Virus record (IMG/VR): IMGVR_UViG_3300011113_000401
Location: 1-31,556 of that record
DNA: 31,556 nt
From: a virus
Reading direction: 5' to 3' (one strand)
Shown: positions 3,495 through 24,698 of the stretch, one piece after another
Numbering within the stretch: position 1 is the stretch's first letter
Layout: each line of letters begins with the position of its first letter
Position numbers and translations under genes: made by a program
The notes under the pieces: model-generated
What the model saw: only the letters and a program-made list of their open reading frames with translations
Database searches by the model: none
Told to the model about the DNA's origin: nothing

Positions 3495-4838
3495 ATGCCA
3501 GTACCTACCCCACAAGACCTATTCGGCTTCGGCAGCGTGCCTCTGTCGAGTTATTTCAAAGTTCCTGCTGGGGCTTCCAAAGACACGCGGTTTTCTCCCG
3601 TAGCAAGAGCTTTGTTTGAACAGGAAGAGCAGCGAGCGCGTGAACAAGAGGCTGAAGATCGACGCTTAGAGGCAGAAGCCCTAGCTAATCAGCTTCTAGG
3701 TCAGGCTCCAGGGATGAGCACGGAGCAGGTGAATCAAGCCATTCTTAGCAATCCGTCTTTTTTCGGGCAAGGGGTTGAGGGGTTGTCTAAATACCAACAG
3801 TTCCGTACACAGGTAACGCCTTCACAGTCTGATGAAGTTCTTGGTCCGGCTTATCTGAACAAGATTAAAGACCCGCGCCACGCGGCTCGCTTCCAGGATC
3901 GTATGCTTCGTGAAGGTTTGTCGGCCAACGACGCATGGGACGCTTACCGGACAGATGAATACAACGACAAGTATGCTGTCCAACTCGCTGAAGCAGGCAT
4001 TCCCGACACGGAGTTCCAGACGTTGCAAGTCAACGGTATGTTTGACCCTGTAGCGGTGTCGAGGAGAGTATCGTTAGCTAATCAAGAGAGAACAGCTAGA
4101 GGCAGTCAGTCCGAAACAGATCGACGACTCGCACGTATTGATAAGCTTCTCGATCTTCAGCGCAAAAGGGTCGAAGAAGGGGACACTGGGTATGAAAAAG
4201 ACAAAAAAGGTAACTATAAATACCCTAACCTTGTCGCTCTTGAGCAGCAATACGAGAGCATGGTTGCCGAAAGCTTGCTGACTCCAGAAGAAAAAGCGTC
4301 GGCTAAAAAGCAAGCAGAGGAGGCTAAAAAGGCTCCTGTTGCTCCTGCGACTCCTGTTGCGGAGAAGGAAGTCACTGAGGAGCTTATTTTGCCAGAACAA
4401 CAGGTTAATCGTCAGGCCACAAAAGCGCGTGAACAGGAGATCAAACAGAAGATTGGTACGGTGTGGTCACAGGCCAAAACGAACATTGAAAACAACCTGC
4501 TGAGAGCTTACAAGCCCGAAGACCTAGACACCTTGGCCGAAGCTATCGTGTCAGGGGCAAGGACGCCTCAAGAAGCTCTTTCGCAGCTTTCGGATGAAGA
4601 TGCCGCTAAGGTCAGAAGTTCTCCTTATCGGGATTACCTGATCACGCGTCTCGGACTCGACCCATACGCCAAGGCGTTCTCGGAACCTGAAAACGAGCGT
4701 TGGGGGACGCAAGATGTCACCAATCAAGAACTTCTGGAAGTCTGGGCGAAAGAAAGGGCAAAAGGCGTTGAAAAGGGCAAGAAAACAGGCACCGTTCCGA
4801 AAATAGTCATAGGAAAACCTGTTCGAGTCACCCCCTAA
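3495..4838 (+). CDS. Charged coiled-coil virion-region protein
   Basis: A 447-residue protein starts two bases after the previous stop with GGAG nearby. After a proline-rich N-terminus it has a strongly charged coiled coil at about residues 35-55 (EQEEQRAREQEAEDRRL). It then has helical segments, a Lys/Glu/Ala-rich hinge near residues 255-290 (EEAKKAPVAPATPVAEK) and further helices. No transmembrane segment or enzyme motif was seen. Lying directly upstream of the giant polyvalent protein, it is a candidate for an internal or ejected virion protein. No family is recognised. Confidence 0.65.
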   Translation: MPVPTPQDLFGFGSVPLSSYFKVPAGASKDTRFSPVARALFEQEEQRAREQEAEDRRLEAEALANQLLGQAPGMSTEQVNQAILSNPSFFGQGVEGLSKYQQFRTQVTPSQSDEVLGPAYLNKIKDPRHAARFQDRMLREGLSANDAWDAYRTDEYNDKYAVQLAEAGIPDTEFQTLQVNGMFDPVAVSRRVSLANQERTARGSQSETDRRLARIDKLLDLQRKRVEEGDTGYEKDKKGNYKYPNLVALEQQYESMVAESLLTPEEKASAKKQAEEAKKAPVAPATPVAEKEVTEELILPEQQVNRQATKAREQEIKQKIGTVWSQAKTNIENNLLRAYKPEDLDTLAEAIVSGARTPQEALSQLSDEDAAKVRSSPYRDYLITRLGLDPYAKAFSEPENERWGTQDVTNQELLEVWAKERAKGVEKGKKTGTVPKIVIGKPVRVTP

Positions 4839-18515: not shown

Positions 18516-19070
18516 TCAATCGGGTACTCCTGGACCGCGAATATACTTGATAGGCCTATCGTCGATCAAATTTTTGCACGATTTAGCATCCATCAAGATG
18601 TTGCATCCAGCCGCAATGTGCGCGAGATGTGACCGCCCGCTTTCAGGATCAATGTCTTCGCCTTGTTGCCAAGCCATCAAATGGCGCATGATAGCCGAGA
18701 CATAAGTGCTCGCATTGACTTTGTTTTGTCGCCAGTTGTAGCGACCATATTTTTCAGCTCCAAGGCCGTGAACCCAAGCCGTTTCAATAAGGGCTGTGGC
18801 AGGCAAAAGTTCCATAGGAGCTTTGGTTTTTCCAGTTTCGCCTTTAGGGTCAGAGACTTGATCAACTTGAGGAGTGAAAACTACATGAGGGTCCCATGGG
18901 TTGGAGACTCGATCAACTTGAGGAGTGAAAACTACATGAGGGTCCCATGGGTCGGAGACTCGATCAACTTGAGGAGTGAAAACTACATGAGGGTCCCGTG
19001 ACTCGTATAGTGCTATGGTTTGGCTGCTGGCTGAGAAGTTATTGTTTTCCATAGATTCAAAACGGTTCAT
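18516..19070 (-). CDS. DUF5664 (dATP/dGTP diphosphohydrolase N-terminal-like) protein with repeat region
   Basis: I prefer the ATG at 19070 (preceded by AGAGAAG); a start nine codons earlier at 19097 is possible. The 184-residue protein has an N-terminal region with three 17-residue repeats (DPHVVFTPQVDRVSDPW type). The DUF5664 domain follows from about residue 85: GLGAEKYGRYNWR, then YVSAIMRHLMAWQQGEDIDP and SHLAHIAAGCNILM. This domain is linked to all-alpha nucleotide pyrophosphohydrolases and, in known phages, to dATP/dGTP diphosphohydrolase. The His and Asp/Glu set (RHL, GEDIDPES, HLAH) fits a metal-dependent active site. It may alter nucleotide pools. Its position just before terminase is unusual for that job. 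Confidence 0.8.
   Translation of the reverse strand: MNRFESMENNNFSASSQTIALYESRDPHVVFTPQVDRVSDPWDPHVVFTPQVDRVSNPWDPHVVFTPQVDQVSDPKGETGKTKAPMELLPATALIETAWVHGLGAEKYGRYNWRQNKVNASTYVSAIMRHLMAWQQGEDIDPESGRSHLAHIAAGCNILMDAKSCKNLIDDRPIKYIRGPGVPD
18853..19000 (-). repeat. Three tandem 51-bp coding repeats
   Basis: Units start at 18853, 18904 and 18955 with a 51-base period, the third incomplete. They are nearly identical in sequence and encode three 17-residue units at the N-terminus of the DUF5664 protein. The copies differ at only a few positions, so the expansion is recent. Confidence 0.95.
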
Positions 19071-19341
19071 TTTCTTCTCTTTTCTGAAAAGCGGCAAACT
19101 CTATTTTCGACTTCTTGATGTGGCATCTTCGGCAAAGTATCTGAAGATTACATTCTTTGTGCTGCCTGCGGTAGAACGTCGTCCTTTTGACGTACCCGAG
19201 CGCATGATGGTGATGACCTTGCGGTATGATGCAGTCGAACTCAAGTTCTTTGGTTGATCCGCACTCACGGCAGCACCCACCAAGTTCAAACGTCAGCCTG
19301 AACCTTGCATTCCTTGCCCAAGTGTAAGGGTTCTGCGGCAT
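19057..19341 (-). CDS. HNH endonuclease-like protein
   Basis: This 94-residue gene begins two bases after the SNF2 stop and its end overlaps the next start. It has a CxxC zinc pair (CRECG), a treble-clef core (ELEFDCIIPQGHHHH), then FYRRQHKECNLQILCRRCH with a second CxxC. This is the HNH layout, except that the usual Asp-His is Asp-Cys here. The nearby HHHH run might provide the general base. Phage HNH proteins next to terminase genes can be required for packaging; others are homing nucleases. Only the DUF5664 gene separates this one from terL. Confidence 0.8.
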   Translation of the reverse strand: MPQNPYTWARNARFRLTFELGGCCRECGSTKELEFDCIIPQGHHHHALGYVKRTTFYRRQHKECNLQILCRRCHIKKSKIEFAAFQKREENEPF

Positions 19342-21415: not shown

Positions 21416-23533
21416 TTATTTTTTGTAGAACTTAACAATATCGCCCTCCGCCTTGAGGGGCATTCCTTCCGCCCACTCGGGCAGCTTGGTGAGAAGAGAA
21501 ACGAACTCTTCAAGGGTCTGTCCCTTATCTGGGTAGTAATAGGCTAAAGCTTCGTCGTGAATCAACGCGCAAATTTCATAGCCAGCACGTTCCGCATTGA
21601 TAGCTCCGTAGGCCATGAAGTCGGCGCAGACACCTTGGCAAAGGTTCTCAACAAGGACTCCTCCATGTGTTACGACACGACCCCAGTTGACGGTCTTGGG
21701 AAGTTGTCCGTAAAACGTAAGGGCGTCCTTCAGCTTGGCGTCAGGGGCTATTCTTCGAACCACGGCCATCTGCTCAGGTGTCGGATTGAGCATCTTCTTC
21801 CATGTCACCTCAATGTCTTCCTTGCCGTCAGGCAGCTTGACTTTTTTCTCCACCTTCCAGGTCAGCATCTTTTCAAGCATGGGCTCTGGATAAGCAATAC
21901 GACGCCCGCTCGGCATTACCATGAACAGGTAGTTCATGCCTGCCGTCTTAGCTGTGAAGAAGTGGCATCGGACGCCAAAAGGAATCTTCTTCATAGGGTT
22001 GCGGACAGCTTGGATGGCTGCTTGTTCCGTCTCGTTCCAAAGTCTGACTATCTGAGGCGAGGCTTCACGCCATGCCGAGACAATGCCAGGAAGCTCTTCC
22101 TTGGTGAGTCCCTGCTTGAGAGCACCCATTTTTTCCATAGCCCCAGGACCGCCTCGATAGCCGAGGGCCAATTCGGCGACCTTACCCTTCTGCCTCAAAG
22201 GGTGAGCTTTGCCGTTCTGCTTTTTGTAAAGGTCAAACTCTTCAAGAGGCACGTTGAACATTTGACCAGCCGAGGCCTCGTAAATCCGTCCATGCGTGTT
22301 GAACACATCTAAGCGCCATTTCTCCTGTGCCTGCCAAGCTAGAGCGCGAGCTTCAATCGCTGCGTAGTCAGCGTCAAGCATGGGTCCTCCCTCAACGTCG
22401 TGAATGAAATGGCGGATGCAGGACGACGCGACCTCTAGGCTGGGACCATACATGGCCTCAAGCCAGCTTGGCTCAATCCCTGCTTGGATTGCTGCGTAAG
22501 CGTCTTCGGTCTCGTCAATCGTCGGGCGCTTAAAATTCTGCGGCTGCACCAAGGACGCGCTCCATCGTCCTGTTCCGGCCCCGTGGAACGTGAGCGTTCC
22601 TCTCACTCGGTTGTCGTGAGGTCCTGCGCAAGCCAGCATGGCGGGAATCTTCTTGAGCGAAGCAAAACTGATCCGCTTCTTGAGCAGCAGCGCCTTACCG
22701 ACTTCGCTGGATGGATCAAAGTCCTCATCCTCAAGCACTTCTTCAAGAGTCCCTGATTGTAGGTTTTCGCGCTCGTAGCCTCTTTCTTTTAACCAATCCA
22801 AAAACTTGGCGTTTTGATTTGGCGATAGCCCTGTAAGGTCTTGAAACTGTTCAGCAATCTTAACATGTTCTTGCTCAACTATCTTTTGAGCTTTCCTTAA
22901 CGCGGCAAGATTCACGGGAAAGCCTCGGGCGTTGATCTCAAGGTCGAGAAGAAACACCTGGAGAGGAAACCCTTTCAATTCAAAGTCCTTGAGCTTCTGA
23001 TGAATCTCCTGTTCTACCCTCACGTCTTGACAACAGTATTCGCAAAACTGCTGAAAAGCTTCCGCGTCCTCATGGGGTTCTACCCATCGACCTGTTTTAG
23101 CGTTAGGTATGGAGAACTTACGGATCAGACCGGCTCCTTTGTCGTCTTTCTGATTACTTAACTTCAAGGCTTCAGCTAGGCGTTTTAGTGACGCAGGTAA
23201 GGCTGCGCGACGACCCATGGCTGCGGTGCATCGCCACTGACAGTGTTGTGGCGCTTTGAACCCAGTAGTCTTTTCAAAGAGTGCGTCCGTTATAGGCACT
23301 TCAAACCCTGTGGCGTTATGGGCGTAGATGATCGTATCCGGCTTGCCTATCTCACGAAGCAGAGCTTCAGCTCTCTTATCTTTTTTCCAAGGTGTCCACA
23401 CCGAGGGAGGACCGTTCTCTTCCGCAATGCCTATACACAATATCTCAGTGGTAGGGTCGAAGGCGTATCGCCACCCACCTACTTTGGTAATATCTGCGCG
23501 TGACCGTGTTTCGTAATCTAAGTGCAATATCAT
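21416..23533 (-). CDS. polA: Family A DNA polymerase with 3'-5' exonuclease
   Basis: This 705-residue protein is the replicative polymerase. The DEDD exonuclease has DYETRS (Asp6, Glu8), HNATGFEV near 72-79 and YCCQDV near 166-171. The polymerase has TGRWS at 321-325, motif A DADYAAIEAR at 387-396, motif B/O-helix RQKGKVAELALGYRGG at 447-462 and motif C HDE at 659-661. The lack of a 5' nuclease domain is normal for phage enzymes. A GGAAG Shine-Dalgarno sequence lies 6 bases before the ATG and partly inside a predicted hairpin. Motif A carries Ala where many homologues have Ser (DYSAIEAR). The flanking tRNA-like gene is 84 bases upstream. Confidence 0.96.
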   Translation of the reverse strand: MILHLDYETRSRADITKVGGWRYAFDPTTEILCIGIAEENGPPSVWTPWKKDKRAEALLREIGKPDTIIYAHNATGFEVPITDALFEKTTGFKAPQHCQWRCTAAMGRRAALPASLKRLAEALKLSNQKDDKGAGLIRKFSIPNAKTGRWVEPHEDAEAFQQFCEYCCQDVRVEQEIHQKLKDFELKGFPLQVFLLDLEINARGFPVNLAALRKAQKIVEQEHVKIAEQFQDLTGLSPNQNAKFLDWLKERGYERENLQSGTLEEVLEDEDFDPSSEVGKALLLKKRISFASLKKIPAMLACAGPHDNRVRGTLTFHGAGTGRWSASLVQPQNFKRPTIDETEDAYAAIQAGIEPSWLEAMYGPSLEVASSCIRHFIHDVEGGPMLDADYAAIEARALAWQAQEKWRLDVFNTHGRIYEASAGQMFNVPLEEFDLYKKQNGKAHPLRQKGKVAELALGYRGGPGAMEKMGALKQGLTKEELPGIVSAWREASPQIVRLWNETEQAAIQAVRNPMKKIPFGVRCHFFTAKTAGMNYLFMVMPSGRRIAYPEPMLEKMLTWKVEKKVKLPDGKEDIEVTWKKMLNPTPEQMAVVRRIAPDAKLKDALTFYGQLPKTVNWGRVVTHGGVLVENLCQGVCADFMAYGAINAERAGYEICALIHDEALAYYYPDKGQTLEEFVSLLTKLPEWAEGMPLKAEGDIVKFYKK

Positions 23534-23617: not shown

Positions 23618-23763
23618 TGAGCACGGCAGGATTTGAACCTGCAATCCTTGGGTCTGATTTCGGACATATCACTGGCTTAGTCCTTCTGCCCTCGTTCGCT
23701 GTATCGGCTACCAGTGTCATATACCGATTTCCATGCGGCGTCTTTACATTCCGCCACGTGCTC
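23618..23763 (-). tRNA. tRNA-like gene with a roughly 55-nt insertion
   Basis: The two ends form a perfect 7-base-pair acceptor stem (GAGCACG with CGTGCTC). Next to the 5' arm is a D-arm GCGGAATGTAAAGACGC, close to class II (Leu/Ser) tRNAs. The T-arm is perfect: GCAGG, loop TTCAAAT, CCTGC. The total is 146 nt instead of about 75-95. Inside, CACTGG and CCAGTG can pair, extended by ATAT on both sides. ATGGAAA at 23728-23734 could be a Ser (GGA) anticodon loop with stem GCCG/CGGT and one mismatch, which would place the extra sequence in the variable arm. An intron in the anticodon arm is the alternative. No CCA is encoded. Amino-acid identity is unresolved. Confidence 0.6.
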
Positions 23764-23814
23764 AAATTGGTGCCCGTCGTTACAGTGACGGAGCCGAGGC
23801 TGGAATACTTTAGT

Positions 23815-24048: not shown

Positions 24049-24125
24049 AGCGTTTGAAGGTTAAGGTTGCCGTCTCTCCGGCTGTCACGTCTCGTTACTG
24101 TGGCGACGTTGACCAGATTGTCACG

Positions 24126-24698
24126 TCAGATTTCAGCAGAGGATTCATCCTCAAACACGTCATCTGCACTGATACCGCCTCCACCGAACGGCTCTCCATC
24201 GCGGAGAAACTGAACGGCATCAAGACCTGCAAAGAGTCCGTTGCCCCCTTTGTCTTTGTCTTTGACGGCGTAGAGTGTCACAACAGCGTTCACGTAGCAG
24301 CCATTGTAGGGCTTCCCGTCTTCGGCGCTGAGAGGCGTGCGGTCTGCATCTACAATCGGAAATTTCTTTCCATTTGTCGCTGATACGACTTTCATGCCTT
24401 CATAGCCGTCATAAGGCTCTCCTGTTTTCTCACTGATCTTGTCATCACCATCAGCGATGCAGCAACGCTTTGGGTCGCGATAATCCATAGGCTTGCCGAA
24501 TTTTTCGACTTCGACCGCTTTACGTGCTTCAGCAAGGGCTTTTAGGGCGTTCTTGCCGTCCACGGTAGAAGGATCAATGAGGAAACTCGCCCTATACTTT
24601 TCTGGGCCGTTGGCAATGCTAGCCGTTGGCTTGAAAAGAGAGCTGAAGCTCAAACGGACATTGCGAAGTTTGACTTGGCCGGGTTTTAACTGACTCAT
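24126..24698 (-). CDS. DUF2815 single-stranded DNA-binding protein
   Basis: This 190-residue protein begins with GQVKLRNVRLSFSSLFKPT and continues with KYRASFLIDP, GYEGMKVVSA and GCYVNAVVTLYA. It ends in an acidic tail (DDVFEDESSAEI). This is the DUF2815 family, OB-fold ssDNA-binding proteins of phage replication cassettes whose acidic tail likely recruits partners. No Shine-Dalgarno sequence precedes the ATG; instead two copies of an 8-base repeat lie immediately upstream. It probably coats single strands for the family A polymerase and DUF2800 nuclease. Confidence 0.93.
   Translation of the reverse strand: MSQLKPGQVKLRNVRLSFSSLFKPTASIANGPEKYRASFLIDPSTVDGKNALKALAEARKAVEVEKFGKPMDYRDPKRCCIADGDDKISEKTGEPYDGYEGMKVVSATNGKKFPIVDADRTPLSAEDGKPYNGCYVNAVVTLYAVKDKDKGGNGLFAGLDAVQFLRDGEPFGGGGISADDVFEDESSAEI

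Follow-up and report, generated by a model that had tools for sequence, protein, structure and literature searches.

In a viral record of 31,556 bases (the window, meaning the whole stretch of DNA analysed), which carries genes for terminase, helicase, DNA polymerase, ssDNA-binding protein, exonuclease and primase, a 145-nt RNA was found in which a tRNA shell encloses an insert of 95 nt. The shell is shared by 37 members, carried by mostly unrelated viral contigs; its stems covary, the anticodon arm is missing, and the inserts are hypervariable yet jointly structured. The window element is probably neither a decoding tRNA nor the carrier of an intron, and it appears fairly likely that it belongs to a group of non-decoding, tRNA-scaffolded phage RNAs, in which a constant shell surrounds a structured insert that differs almost wholly from phage to phage. 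Such RNAs apparently form an undescribed set; a full-text literature search, outside which most subscription papers lie, retrieved no paper on them, and the accessible parts of PMC2864571 and PMC5852040 contain nothing alike.

The window element occupies positions 23619..23763 of the minus strand, with the discriminator A73 at 23618. The 5' strand of its acceptor stem, GAGCACG (23757..23763, minus strand as all parts of the element), pairs at all seven positions with the 3' strand CGTGCTC (23619..23625), and T23764 with A73 provides an eighth pair. T8 and G9 follow with the D-arm GCG-GAATGTAAAGA-CGC (23738..23756), the motif by which the family was found; its stem (23754-23752 with 23740-23738) is perfect, as is the T-arm GCAGG-TTCAAAT-CCTGC (23626..23642). 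The D-arm presumably resembles that of bacterial tRNA-Leu, and its loop has one G at the place of the canonical GG (positions 18 and 19). Between D-arm and T-arm lies the variable insert (23643..23737), which takes the place of the anticodon arm and the variable loop and shows no sequence similarity to inserts from other contigs. Its best fit is a predicted H-type pseudoknot, in which helix S1 (ATCGGT, 23723..23728, with GCCGAT, 23703-23708) is crossed by helix S2 (CACTGGT, 23710..23716, with GCCAGTG, 23670-23676); its pseudoknot score was matched by 0 of 200 shuffles and its nested energy by 9 of 200. For the element as a whole the fold has z = -3.35, and one of 200 shuffles was equally stable. 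The first-pass annotation had placed a tRNA-like gene at 23618-23763, and the place holds, with the RNA now read on the minus strand. It had also correctly noticed the perfect 7-bp acceptor stem, a D-arm and the perfect T-arm, the position just ahead of the polymerase gene, and a CACTGG/CCAGTG helix, here S2, whose ATAT extension is possible in a pseudoknot-free fold; its estimate of about 55 extra bases falls short of the 95 nt of insert in the 145-nt body.

The element sits between the gene for a gp2.5-like ssDNA-binding protein (PHROG 112; 24126..24698), located upstream, and that for the DNA polymerase (PHROG 17; 21416..23533), located downstream, on the same minus strand as both. Directly upstream of it, with ATTT between, is a small conserved element ending GGGC-ACCA (23768..23801, minus strand), found also in L009, L010, L022 and L127 (contigs and loci are given by such numbers), whose fold taken alone is not significant. 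Two open reading frames without a PHROG match overlap the RNA, one of 188 aa on the same strand and one of 85 aa on the opposite strand, and a search next to the RNA for a sigma-70-like promoter gave none. The best antisense match of the insert to its own contig is 11 nt, the same as in shuffles, so that an antisense or sRNA role within its own genome is unsupported. Two other features of the window deserve mention: positions 24069-24085 (minus strand), ACAGCCGGAGAGACGGC, are letter-identical in L001/L003 and in the otherwise unrelated L066/L092, and a protein encoded at 18516-19097 (minus strand) has a three-fold repeat, DPHVVFTPQVD, before a remaining part that matches phage families named endolysin and dATP/dGTP pyrophosphohydrolase.

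Rfam detects the window element as a weak tRNA (RF00005, 31.8 bits for a gathering threshold of 29, E 0.0049), in an alignment that covers all 71 model positions and leaves 83 middle bases unmodelled; this was the sole family reported there, with no tmRNA match, and ARAGORN gave neither a tRNA nor a tmRNA at the element. Our own model, R1, whose 36 training rows include the window, scores it at 83.2 bits. A scan for T-arm plus acceptor in the window and 63 further loci returned 27 matches, versus about 2 in shuffles.

Other members were recruited by scanning the 17-nt D-arm motif of the window, GCGRAATGTAAAGACGC, through 2.9 million IMG/VR viral contigs, which gave 31 matches in 30 contigs. 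Since the motif is silent on the sequence 50-200 bases downstream, the presence there of the other half of a tRNA is a fair test; a T-arm with a TTCRA loop and an acceptor strand pairing at 7/7 positions followed within 290 nt at 25 of the 31 matches, versus 2 of 2000 random positions. Four more (L068, L081, L082, L084) have an altered T-loop, relaxed by eye, together with a complementary acceptor, in L073 the contig end removes the 5' strand, and the second motif copy of L087 is the one match out of 31 with no convincing 3' half. Use of a 22-nt 3' half as query hit 47 contigs and added further members. Among the matches listed for another scan, at 15 nt, many must be due to chance. In total, 42 distinct shell-like sequences were extracted and 37 were kept, L070_69, L001_72, L180_72, L070_82 and L203_198 being set aside as canonical or doubtful; the set of 37 leaves out L073 and the four cases with a relaxed T-loop. 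Outside its training set, R1 (whose E-values are rough) matched new elements in L204, L286, L231 and L301 and a long-stem element in L011; its outputs in L205 and L001 look like ordinary tRNAs, and those in L009/L022 and L012/L050 are weak (23-26 bits).

The shell is under evident constraint. In the alignment of 36 members (L181, a near copy of L072, was omitted), 98.3% of the acceptor, D and T cells form standard pairs, and both sides have changed in 9 of 15 pairs, namely 6 of 7 in the acceptor and 3 of 5 in the T stem; the D stem has no two-sided change. The covariation score is 0.292 against 0.093, none of 500 shuffles reached any of five measures, and the signal was lost when partner columns were slid by 1-3 positions. 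Thus the compensatory stem changes whose lack in homologues had been named beforehand as refuting the tRNA-like reading are present. Of the 37 members, 32 have T at position -1, 29 have A as N73 and 8 encode CCA behind it; tRNA-processing enzymes recognise such features. The D-arm loop is nearly letter-identical among members, and conservation of the shell in general is inflated by recruitment with exact shell motifs; the D-loops of L183 and L065_104 read TTGG, and that of L190 has, by eye, about 30 extra nt.

Conversely, the inserts share almost nothing. In the 37 members they range from 32 to 174 nt, in bodies of 82-224 nt (median element 114 nt), their starts being set by a script rule and thus varying by a few bases; only 4 of 666 insert pairs are similar, and these fall in two clusters (L066/L083 and L072/L181/L190). 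Between L072 and L190 an insert helix is kept, by eye, through a double change of U-A to C-G. Taken jointly, the inserts of 34 non-redundant members (three near-duplicates were dropped) are more folded than their shuffles, with Fisher p of 5.5e-6 for the pseudoknot score and 1.2e-5 for nested energy, two tests that are not independent, the pseudoknot energy being a simple score of our own. Singly, 8 of 34 inserts reach p<=0.05 by pseudoknot score and 7 of 34 by nested energy, and most are not significant alone. A helix stacked against the T-arm, which had been expected as a common feature, was dropped, as it is not enriched among the 37 members (Fisher p 0.06; 3 of 37 at 0.05).

The carriers are diverse. 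Of the 35 carrier contigs, 3 encode a relative of the window polymerase, in one case by a weak, partial match, which indicates that most carriers are not closely related to the window; R1 matches all 35, most of which contributed to the model, so that this is no independent test. No conserved neighbour gene was found among the carriers, and consequently no partner can be named. In 84,980 cellular species genomes the exact motif GTGGCGGAATGTAAAGACGC has a single match (L174), which lies inside a protein gene, taken to be that of a P-type ATPase; it was rejected as a family member, the sequence reading through as protein. Among 50,697 phage records none matched the 84-nt element of L076, and for stretches of L083 and L066 only T-arm-sized pieces matched isolate phages and plasmids; with these queries no member was recognised in either collection. 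Of the isolate-phage matches, the two inspected were discarded: H63 is annotated as an ordinary tRNA, and H38 is an unannotated short tRNA-like piece next to an integrase gene, taken for an attachment site.

In relatives of the window, represented by the 63 loci, which were retrieved via their ssDNA-binding protein or polymerase, the gene order is ssDNA-binding protein, small protein, RNA gap and polymerase. L002/L086, a near-identical contig (99.7% over 780 nt, with the L002 polymerase 99% identical to that of the window), has the identical element. L003, whose polymerase is at 90%, has in the same gap an ordinary 73-nt tRNA-Leu(CAA), with a homologous 5' flank, the same CAATTTGAGC, and a homologous acceptor, paired as GAGCGCG/CGCGCTC; it differs from the window element in its 72-nt body, ordinary anticodon arm and short variable loop. 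In L009/L022, L013-L019, L023 and L024 other tRNA-like RNAs, some with long inserts, adjoin the polymerase gene, and among the loci listed L006, L007 and L011 have RNAs with a closing stem of 13-19 bp. The RNA content thus differs among relatives, so that the gap turns over fast and the flanking genes stay. As for the small upstream protein gene, 80 loci drawn from at least 598 relatives gave no shell RNA by R1 except in L127, which is the same contig as L009; with one match in 80 control loci, a link of the shell RNA to this gene was dropped.

Further structured RNAs were seen at these loci. Most of the tRNA-like RNAs with a long closing stem have a T-arm (L006:4537-4667 and 4682-4774; L011:401-577 and 592-684; L007:4524-4622 and 4624-4739; L066:6158-6325), and their outer stem is similar between phages and their interior different. 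Another element of the same gap, CTCCCGT...ACGGGAG, is found at L005:4887-4969, L061:4889-4971 and L011:309-392, its stems changing on both sides between the loci listed, as judged by eye. L013-L019 (e.g. L014:4780-4889, plus strand) have a 110-nt tRNA-like RNA in which a region enclosed by CTAGG/CCTAG comes after a Cys-like GCA loop, also recognised by eye. In three loci the match to the polymerase is interrupted by inserted sequence (L041:6935-7860, at about residue 630; L053:6512-6831 and L054:6587-6936, at residues 462-485), perhaps an intron, an intein or an insertion.

That these RNAs are decoding tRNAs, interrupted by an intron or equipped with a large variable arm, is improbable. The window element does have the 7-bp acceptor and the 5-bp T stem with TTCRA loop expected of a decoding tRNA, Rfam scores seven other members above gathering as well (29.4-37.5 bits; two in L089, and L064, L074, L076, L078, L080), and a canonical tRNA lies in the same gap in L003. 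However, an anticodon arm of 5 bp and 7 nt after the D-arm is absent from the window and convincing, among the 37 members, only in L023 (CAGGC-CTCATGA-GCCTG); L070_113 scored for such an arm at a wrong offset. ARAGORN run without introns called one of 37 members (L076, as tRNA-Ser), and with introns 18 further ones of scattered isotype (Ile, Met, Ala, Lys, His, Leu, Asp and others), with no split anticodon arm and consistent isotype after intron removal; moreover, inserts of down to 32 nt leave no room for both arm and intron. The earlier proposals of a tRNA with a large variable arm and of a small intron are therefore not borne out, nor is a Ser-GGA-like identity, the tRNA in the corresponding gap of L003 being a tRNA-Leu. 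Decay into a tRNA pseudogene is very improbable: the lost G of the D-loop, the lack of an anticodon and the real tRNA of L003 would agree with it, but it is largely refuted by the covariation of acceptor and T stems, and these compensatory changes, together with the recurrence of one altered D-loop in many contigs that are mostly unrelated, point to selection on the altered form.

The tRNA ends, the absence of an anticodon and the pseudoknot-rich middle would also fit a reduced tmRNA-like RNA, charged and acting on ribosomes, and the contig L074 has a tmRNA gene as well; this seems hardly probable, since the tools that read the window element found no tmRNA there, most inserts seem to lack the length for both a tag frame and pseudoknots, and the D-arm is, as we take it, like that of tRNA-Leu. 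There is precedent in mitochondria for tRNAs that separate mRNAs, and the shell could similarly be a site for RNase P and 3'-end cutting between messages, with the insert as neutral filler. The constant features are only those shell traits that processing enzymes read, and of the 40 elements that have an upstream open reading frame (called mechanically, at least 70 aa), 37 share their strand with the nearest one, as do 23 of 39 on the downstream side. Filler, however, should shrink and lose structure, whereas the inserts reach 174 nt and jointly exceed shuffles in structure; RNase P hardly needs the D-arm loop, yet this is almost letter-identical, a point weakened by recruitment through the motif. 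Such punctuation is thus considered unlikely.

If the shell RNA is instead a non-decoding scaffold, it would be co-transcribed with the neighbouring genes and then, as its acceptor, T-arm, U-1 and A73 suggest, cut by RNase P before G1 and trimmed at the 3' end, with CCA, in the manner of a tRNA, the host's tRNA enzymes serving to mature the shell. The product, unable to decode for want of an anticodon arm, might be a stable RNA protected in a tRNA-like way, and the phage would thereby gain a durable carrier for exchangeable RNA. As the last and least certain step, the insert would most likely bind or occupy a fast-evolving host factor, e.g. a tRNA-targeting defence nuclease; a partner that itself changes fast, for instance a host defence factor, would best account for the turnover of inserts. 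The insert may then be a counter-defence decoy, and a decoy or tRNA-like RNA, the third guess of the first-pass annotation, is the direction that the evidence favours.

Some GOLLD and ROOL RNAs are phage-borne, and these are much larger and have no tRNA shell; tmRNA bodies exceed 300 nt. GOLLD and ROOL are likewise structured non-coding RNAs (PMC12286853), and tmRNA (RF00023; PMC2481249) is alike in having tRNA ends that close a pseudoknot-rich middle with no anticodon; unlike tmRNA, the shell RNAs have no detected tag frame, bodies of at most 224 nt and an insert that is not conserved. The closest architecture is that of the engineered tRNA scaffold for recombinant RNA (PMC3753655), a constant tRNA shell in which an exchangeable insert stands where the anticodon arm would be; that one is man-made, whereas the phage version is natural, has an altered D-loop and holds the phage's own inserts. 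Defence systems that cut tRNAs include Septu, acting on the variable loop of tRNA-Tyr, and Cas12a3, acting on tRNA tails (PMC13096335, PMC12851939), and phage tRNAs evade retron-Eco7 and PrrC170 (PMC11555353). The latter are likewise phage-encoded RNAs of tRNA type, directed against tRNA-targeting defence, but they are functional in decoding and replace the cut ones, which the shell RNAs cannot do; the word "decoy" does not occur in the main text of that paper. If the scaffold reading is true, phages arrived at the tRNA scaffold earlier than biotechnologists did and use it to deploy RNAs that keep changing, and a class of viral non-coding RNA, mostly missed or called weak tRNA by tRNA finders, would be added, with testable candidates for RNA-based counter-defence. 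The place to search would be the gaps between genes of uncultivated phages, and the shell alone suffices to find more members.

In L066/L092, L080, L231, L301 and L023 the shell RNA is immediately preceded by a second structured RNA, TTGCCTGCCGTGCCTGTGCTGGCCGA ... GAAGCGCGAGAGAGCAC ... GGACTCTCGCGGCGGCAGGCAA, whose ends and middle are constant and which has two variable stretches. Its copies include L066:6333-6478 (plus), L080:6679-6834 (minus), L023:4737-4865 (plus) and L078:8971-9082 (minus), among others. Over 24 aligned copies, 12 of 22 pairs have changed on both sides, which 0 of 500 shuffles reached; the crossing helix 17-21/116-120 has no two-sided change and rests on conservation, which is partly the search pattern itself. 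Rfam gives no match, even at E 1, to an 801-base stretch of L066 that includes this RNA. The second carrier lends support to the notion that carriers hold exchangeable inserts, and it is conceivable, though rather doubtful, that both belong to a natural RNA display system common to many unrelated phages, in which the tRNA shell and the second, pseudoknotted carrier would present rapidly exchanged inserts, each one evolved as bait or block for a particular host factor, amounting to a swappable library of RNA inhibitors between genes. The tmRNA of L074 (3202-3532, minus strand; 117.6 bits) has an odd predicted tag of 27 residues, and the same contig also bears a shell RNA and a second carrier.
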